DNA from: Sphingomonadales bacterium
GTDB lineage: Bacteria; Pseudomonadota; Alphaproteobacteria; Sphingomonadales; Govanellaceae
Assembly: GCA_019455285.1 (NCBI GenBank)
Contig: JACFMS010000010.1
Coordinates: 1-64,000 of the forward strand
Direction of reading: 5' to 3'
DNA length: 64,000 bases
Shown: in pieces, positions 22,289-23,337 of the stretch
Numbering within the stretch: position 1 is the stretch's first letter
Layout: each line of letters opens with the position of its first letter
The notes under the pieces: generated by a model
What the model was told of the DNA's origin: nothing
Databases searched by the model: none
Seen by the model: only the letters and a program-made list of their open reading frames with translations
Made by a program: the position numbers and the translations under genes

Positions 22289-22612
22289 TCAGCCCAAGAG
22301 ACGTAAGCGGCGGTCGACAAGGTCGGCGCCGACGGCGATAGTCTCCACGGCGACGCTATAGACCAAAACCGAGGCGCGGATTTTCTCGGCGATGACGCCG
22401 GCGCGGCGATCATCAAGACCACGCGCCTTGATGTCGATGGTCAAGAGACCGCCATTGAAGCGACGCGACCGCACCAGCTCGGGCAGAATGTCATTGAGGG
22501 CAAAAAATTCCACCACCCGGGACAACGCCGCGGGATCGGCCGCAGCCGATACGGTAAAATGGACGGTATTTAAGGAAACCAGCTCTTGCTGAGCCGCAAC
22601 GGCGGTAGACAT
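22289..22612 (-). CDS. Small ACT-domain-like protein (107 aa)
   Basis: A 107-residue protein whose residues 13-85 (VHFTVSAAADPAALSRVVEFF ... LLTIDIKARGLDDRRAGVIA) have the beta-alpha-beta-beta-alpha-beta spacing of an ACT domain, similar to small acetolactate-synthase regulatory subunits. It is not next to a large subunit. ACT domains bind amino acids, so a regulatory role is likely. The ATG at 22612 has AAGG eight bases upstream; a GTG at 22621 overlaps that site. Its mRNA leader carries a short peptide gene and a stem that hides the ribosome site. Confidence 0.6.
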   Translation of the reverse strand: MSTAVAAQQELVSLNTVHFTVSAAADPAALSRVVEFFALNDILPELVRSRRFNGGLLTIDIKARGLDDRRAGVIAEKIRASVLVYSVAVETIAVGADLVDRRLRLLG

Positions 22613-22618
22613 GACGGA

Positions 22619-22722
22619 CACCTTAGTGACAAACGAATGGGATGAGTGAACGACTGAAAGCCCGGCCCTACGCGAGGACCGGGGTTTTAATTCGTGCCGT
22701 GCACATTCGTTTGCTTAAGGTG
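22619..22722 (-). promoter_or_regulatory. Structured mRNA leader masking the ribosome site of the ACT-domain gene
   Basis: Two stretches at the ends of the leader pair: CACCTTA and CAAACGAATG near the 5' side of the minus transcript (22704-22722) with CATTCGTTTG and TAAGGTG near the 3' side (22619-22639), giving 17 base pairs with one internal loop. The AAGGTG ribosome site of the ACT gene is in the 3' arm. Between them lies a G+C-rich hairpin, CCCGGTCC/GGGCCGGG (22661-22683). A 19-codon leader ORF runs through the 5' arm into that hairpin. Confidence 0.7.
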
Positions 22723-22727
22723 CGCAT
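22668..22727 (-). CDS. Leader peptide (19 aa) upstream of the ACT-domain gene
   Basis: A 20-codon reading frame, peptide MRTLSKRMCTARIKTPVLA, begins with ATG preceded at four bases by AAAGGGG, one of the best ribosome sites in the window. Codons 2-8 form the 5' arm of the stem that hides the downstream ribosome site, and the TAG stop lies in the loop of the inner hairpin. This placement is what a translation-coupled attenuator needs. No single amino acid is over-represented, so the sensed signal is not evident. Confidence 0.55.
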   Translation of the reverse strand: MRTLSKRMCTARIKTPVLA

Positions 22728-22851
22728 ACCACCCCTTTACGCCGATCGGCAGGGAGTGTCAAGAAAGTCTCTTGCCCAAATTGCCCGGTCTTGGTTGCAT
22801 TTTCCCTAATATCACCCTAGAAGATGAGGTTTCTTGCGGGGAGGTTAAGGA

Positions 22852-23337
22852 ATGACCGGGCTTGATCATATGGACGTCAAAATTCTCAGCGTCCTGCAGG
22901 AAAACGCTCGCATCTCCAACCAGGATCTGGCGGATAAGGTCGGGCTATCCCCCTCGCCCTGCTGGCGACGGGTGCGCCGGCTGGAGGAGGAGGGGATCAT
23001 CAGCCGCTATGCCGCGCTTCTGGTCCCCGAGGCCATCGGCCTCCATATCACCGCTTTCGCCCATGTCATGCTGGACAATCACCACGCCGAGACGGTGCGA
23101 GTATTCGAACAGGCGATCGCCGGCGCGCCTTATGTGCTTGAATGCTGCTCTACGAGCGGCGAATACGACTATCTGTTGCGCGTCATCGCCCCCAGCATGA
23201 GCGCCTATGAGGCGTTCCTGACCAGCACGTTGTTGCAAATTCCCGCCGTGCGATCGGTCAGCACCAGCTTCGTGCTGAAGATGAAGAAAAGCACCACCGT
23301 GCTGCCGCTAGACGGCATCAGCGTCGTTGCCGGATAA
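22852..23337 (+). CDS. Lrp/AsnC family transcriptional regulator
   Basis: A 161-residue regulator. The N-terminal helix-turn-helix (LDHMDVKILSVLQENARISNQ; SPSPCWRRVRRLEEEGII) is followed by an effector-binding RAM/ACT domain with CCSTSGEYDYLLRV and the SVSTSFVLKMKKSTTVLPL tail common to this family. It should sense an amino acid. GGGGAGG lies before the ATG. It is transcribed away from the ACT-domain gene, and the two share a 239-bp upstream region, so it may regulate that gene. Confidence 0.92.
   Translation: MTGLDHMDVKILSVLQENARISNQDLADKVGLSPSPCWRRVRRLEEEGIISRYAALLVPEAIGLHITAFAHVMLDNHHAETVRVFEQAIAGAPYVLECCSTSGEYDYLLRVIAPSMSAYEAFLTSTLLQIPAVRSVSTSFVLKMKKSTTVLPLDGISVVAG

Follow-up and report, generated by a model that had tools for sequence, protein, structure and literature searches.

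Does the short open reading frame found ahead of an ACT gene control the translation of this gene, and if so, what does it sense? The question is raised by a locus of the window (the whole 64,000-nucleotide stretch of Sphingomonadales DNA that was analysed). The original prediction described there, on the minus strand (22612-22740), a 19-codon leader with a near-perfect ribosome site, interlocked with a stem that hides the ribosome site of the ACT gene, and proposed that translation of the leader switches on the ACT protein. The arrangement that it described is present. Its interpretation is supported only in part: the conserved in-frame leader, the conserved stem and the hairpin holding the leader stop are borne out, with coupling of leader translation to ACT expression as the obvious logic.

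The leader, the stem and the hairpin in the window

The leader ORF (ATGCGCACC...GCGTAG, encoding MRTLSKRMCTARIKTPVLA, stop codon TAG) lies at 22668-22727 on the minus strand. Its codons 2-8 (22722-22704, minus strand; CACCUUA..CAAACGAAUG) pair with 22639-22619 (CAUUCGUUUG..UAAGGUG), giving 17 pairs in two blocks. The 3' arm holds AAGGTG, the ribosome site of the ACT gene, 6 nt before the start codon at 22612. The stop codon begins at the last loop base of a G+C-rich hairpin (CCCGGUCCU-CGCGU-AGGGCCGGG; 22661-22683, minus strand). A CGA-ATT (Arg-Ile) dicodon (22689-22694, minus strand) is located 4 nt before the CCCCGG that opens the hairpin arm. The minimum free energy of the region is -64.7 kcal/mol, against a mean of -46.7 for dinucleotide-shuffled sequences (z -4.45; 1 of 200 shuffles as good).

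The AAAGGGG string that was taken for the ribosome site of the leader is present, but it overlaps a probable promoter (22734-22762, minus strand; TTGACA-17 nt-TAAAGG) whose -10 box ends 6 nt before the ATG. This layout, and not the AAAGGGG string, is conserved in relatives. At most ACT and ileS leaders, a TTGAC- or TCGACA-like -35 box, 16-18 nt and a TAnnnn -10 box end 5-9 nt before the leader ATG; on average, 5% (ACT) and 2% (ileS) of random positions in the same locus score as well (the best of several possible ATGs was taken, which the control does not allow for). AAAGGGG is thus more likely -10 DNA plus spacer than a ribosome site. The transcript probably starts at the ATG, and the leader is probably leaderless, as is trpL of Sinorhizobium meliloti (PMC10117765).

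The downstream gene (22289-22612, minus strand) encodes a 107-aa protein without any Pfam hit. AlphaFold2 on an alignment of 49 relatives predicts an ACT fold (mean pLDDT 85.6; order of elements EHEEHE, then a C-terminal helix). The best PDB match of the model is IlvN, the regulatory subunit of acetolactate synthase (5ypp, E 4.4e-6), and a profile search hits another such subunit (2f1f, E 2.5e-4). The sequence does not reach the curated family cut-offs of the acetolactate synthase small subunit (IlvN/IlvM), and a separate true small subunit is encoded on contig 7 of the genome. The protein is thus referred to as IlvN-like and not as IlvN.

Conservation of the leader and its target genes

Orthologues of the ACT gene were found in all four genomes of the window's family (f1) and in many genomes of another family, f8. 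Each one examined has a leader at the same place (MRTLGKRMCTARIKTPVLA, MARDLERMGMTRIICPALA, MTYTHFARMSIARITGPVLG, MKQTASLRMRMYRIMTPVL, MKHYCLKRMCISRIMSPVFA and others), ending R-I-x-x-P-[VAIT]-[LF]-(x)-stop, with the stop at the hairpin loop. Changes in leader length before Arg-Ile are multiples of three. The loss of both leader and stem from orthologues had been named beforehand as a refutation; both are kept. At one f8 locus (L047, genome G110), the leader survives but a deletion joins it to the inside of the ACT gene, removing the ribosome site and the start: a decaying copy.

The hairpin covaries: 97% of cells are paired, with 11 both-side changes against 2.3 in shuffles, and class-wide the pair types C-G, U-A, U-G and G-C are found at one position. 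A covariance model built from f8 alone recognizes the window's element at E 0.002 and that of locus L003 at 4e-4 (filters off, search restricted to fetched loci). A full-length f8 model missed the window's family in whole-genome scans with filters, so its empty class-wide result carries no meaning.

A model of the leader plus hairpin found the same element in family f4 before a second IlvN-like gene, and before ileS (isoleucyl-tRNA synthetase) in families f2, f4 and f6. Among 89 loci of the class read upstream of ileS, 24 have a leader-like ORF ending R-I-x-x-P according to a loose regular expression that also admits a few false ones. A DNA pattern without any ORF requirement (CGAATTANNNNCCCGGYNCT) gave 40 hits in 36 of 255 alphaproteobacterial genomes, against 1 for the reversed control. 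By inspection, 22 hits lie before ileS, 17 before an IlvN-like ACT gene and 1 before a decayed ACT copy. The decayed copy (L215, position 1500) has a leader nearly identical to that of L220 in the same genome, and a truncated ACT start fused in frame to ribF just upstream of ileS. Two genomes carry leaders in tandem, about 190 nt apart, before one ACT gene (L221, 474 and 674; L222, 532 and 714). All 39 distinct hits have an in-frame ATG, against 2 and 3 in the other frames; 28 have the in-frame stop at the hairpin loop, against 3 and 1, and the other 11 read on. In 63 collected leaders, the dicodon is CGA-ATT in 53 and CGA-ATG in 10, and CCG is found four codons after CGA in all (some were collected with that spacing required). 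In window genes, CGA is 4% of Arg codons and ATT is 25% of Ile codons. The window's element fits the family defined by these hits: CGA-ATT followed at fixed spacing by CCCGG and in frame with an ATG, a hairpin with the leader stop at its loop, and ileS or the IlvN-like ACT gene downstream.

The ileS leader is found in S. meliloti (MTRFHRVIIDQRIIGPAFRAL), Shinella sp., Paracoccus denitrificans and Methylobacterium bullatum. It is lacking in Sphingopyxis indica, and the ileS gene of the window's own genome has no such leader. A leader-like ORF (MMKNTFKHINALWQQKRITIPV, then a stop) with a hairpin also precedes a small P-loop ATPase gene in two f4 genomes (L079, 1278-1361; L082, 909-992), which could be a third target.

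In ACT loci from 14 families or single genomes, the region from the leader start to Arg-Ile pairs with the ribosome-site region. MAFFT alone misaligns the 3' arm, and the long stem by itself shows little both-side covariation on the alignment examined; the stem was thus tested by swapping arms between families. A locus' own arms are more stable than the mean of swapped arms in 39 of 41 loci (median z -1.7). This control is conservative, as the arms share conserved bases, but loci within a family are not independent. For ileS, only some loci show the same stem.

Two architectures exist for ACT genes. Either the leader stops at the hairpin (window, f1, f8 and others), or it runs through the hairpin and ends 10-35 nt inside the ACT gene in another frame (most of f4: L070-L078, L087; single genomes: L189, L200, L204, L220, L225, L227).

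Putative mode of action

The cost of opening the ACT ribosome site was calculated for 24 loci, with the transcript starting at the ATG. The mean cost is 12.9 kcal/mol with no ribosome, 12.5 with a ribosome at the leader stop, 10.0 with the Ile codon in the A site, 8.4 with a second ribosome at the start and 7.1 with a ribosome at codon 5. The Ile stall lowers the cost by 2 kcal/mol or more in 18 of 24 loci, but not in the window: in the window and its closest kin, a single ribosome at the Ile codon hardly changes it (12.2 to 12.1), and only a ribosome near the leader start does (2.4-3.6). Modelling of unpaired probabilities showed no effect of a ribosome at the Ile codon, because the outer helix still forms. 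Thermodynamic folding ignores kinetics and ribosome sterics.

The explanation preferred here, with reasonable but not high confidence, is a leader-peptide attenuator acting on translation initiation. With no ribosome, or after one has finished, leader codons would pair with the ribosome site and keep the ACT gene off. A ribosome held on the early codons, or delayed with the conserved Ile codon in its A site, would mask the 5' arm, alone or with a following ribosome, and let the ACT gene be translated; in the window, a following ribosome must be invoked. The base of the hairpin lies about 5 nt after the Ile codon, where, as inferred from ribosome footprints, a ribosome front would meet it. Translation of the leader as such, as originally predicted, need not switch the gene on; pausing, and not completion, should. 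The original remark that this is not a textbook attenuator is right (there is one Ile codon and no run), but the peptide is not arbitrary: the Arg-Ile pair and Pro (CCG) are almost invariant, and the same leader precedes ileS, so that the sensed condition is most likely a shortage of charged tRNA-Ile. Both kinds of target, ileS and the IlvN-like ACT gene, are isoleucine-related. The leader, the stem, the hairpin, their conservation and the two kinds of target gene rest on the analysis itself, whereas the leaderless start, isoleucine as the signal and the direction of the response are inferred. The model does not account for the fixed CGA or for the few f4 leaders that lack Ile near it altogether (L076, L078, L088); some f4 leaders have Met instead of Ile after CGA, which also speaks against it.

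Translational coupling, in which ribosomes on the leader open the stem and hand over to, or allow starts at, the ACT ribosome site without any sensing, is less likely but is the most serious rival. In 15 of 43 ACT loci the leader ends inside the ACT gene, ribosomes early on the leader open the site best, and short leader-to-gene distances are common and were proposed to serve reinitiation (PMC4833913). However, coupling does not explain the near-invariant CGA-ATT, its fixed spacing to the hairpin, or why the only other established target class is ileS, and in most loci the leader stops 50 nt or more before the ACT start. Transcription attenuation of the ilv/trp type, with the hairpin as terminator, is suggested by the combination of a leader and a G+C-rich hairpin, and the ilvBN leader of Caulobacter crescentus works this way (PMC4117421, citing Tarleton 1994). 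It is improbable here: no U-run follows the hairpin in the window, a terminator scan does not list it, and in many relatives it is followed by AUAU, AAAA or G+C.

Nascent-peptide arrest, in which the peptide stalls the ribosome near its stop codon and a small molecule tunes it, is equally improbable. The conserved C-terminal R-I-x-x-P-V-L with its Pro and its short distance to the stop recalls arrest peptides, but the last residues drift (VL, AL, IL, TL, VF, AF) while the CGA and ATT codons are fixed at the nucleotide level, and a ribosome at the stop leaves the ribosome site closed. Least likely is a pure RNA element, binding a protein or a ligand, with an incidental ORF. CGAATT is indeed conserved as nucleotides and pairs with the 3' arm, but the ATG and the stop at the loop are found in the leader frame (39 of 39 and 28 of 39 hits), and no Rfam family matches at gathering or relaxed thresholds.

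Related systems and neighbouring genes

A C. crescentus study that mapped CDSs by ribosome profiling names an ileS leader CDS, CCNA_03934 (PMC4117421), which fits translation of ileS leaders in the class; the leaders found here before ileS are probably the same thing. The study was not found to describe a motif, structure or regulation for it, or to mention the ACT-gene branch. It is the only paper found that names an ileS leader. The motif, its structure, its spread and the ACT-gene branch were not found in the literature searched, which did not extend to subscription papers, so that prior mention (for example in Vitreschak et al. 2004 on proteobacterial attenuators) cannot be excluded.

In the actinobacterial LEU element before leuA, Leu codons of a leader pair with the Shine-Dalgarno box, but the element is a pseudoknot with a run of Leu codons; the translational T-box before actinobacterial ileS hides the ribosome site in a hairpin, but binds tRNA directly and has no leader peptide (PMC1262725). 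Both belong to another phylum and share no sequence with the present element. The Caulobacter ilvBN/ilvIH leader (described in PMC4117421, citing Tarleton 1994) also carries branched-chain amino acid codons, but uses tandem Ile/Val codons and a transcription terminator, before other genes. In erm/cat translational attenuators, ribosome stalling in a leader ORF likewise frees a sequestered ribosome site, but it is induced by antibiotics and the sequences are unrelated. S. meliloti trpL, a leaderless short ORF at the 5' end of its transcript, is a transcription attenuator with Trp codons, whose peptide also acts in trans (PMC10117765).

It is about as likely as not that much of the Alphaproteobacteria carries an undescribed, leaderless, ribosome-read isoleucine switch, with a near-invariant CGA-ATT placed one ribosome front before a hairpin, controlling translation of both ileS and a free-standing IlvN-like ACT protein in two architectures. 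If so, one leader peptide family would link charging of tRNA-Ile to an IlvN-like regulator, without terminators or codon runs, across a class that includes model organisms. It would give the uncharacterized ACT proteins a physiological setting and raise the question of why a rare Arg codon is held before the sensed codon.

A divergent Lrp/AsnC-type regulator gene (22852-23337) adjoins the leader in the window. Such a gene is also adjacent to the ACT gene in L003 and to the f4 paralogue, which suggests a second, transcriptional input. The f4 paralogue next to Lrp (L008, L012, L016, L024) lacks this leader and has its own conserved TAGGAACC motif upstream, in L012 with a matching GGGTTCC. In f8 (L007, L009, L022), the ACT gene is followed by a cysteine-synthase-like gene and, in L007 and L009, by a sulfurtransferase-like gene, possibly in one operon.
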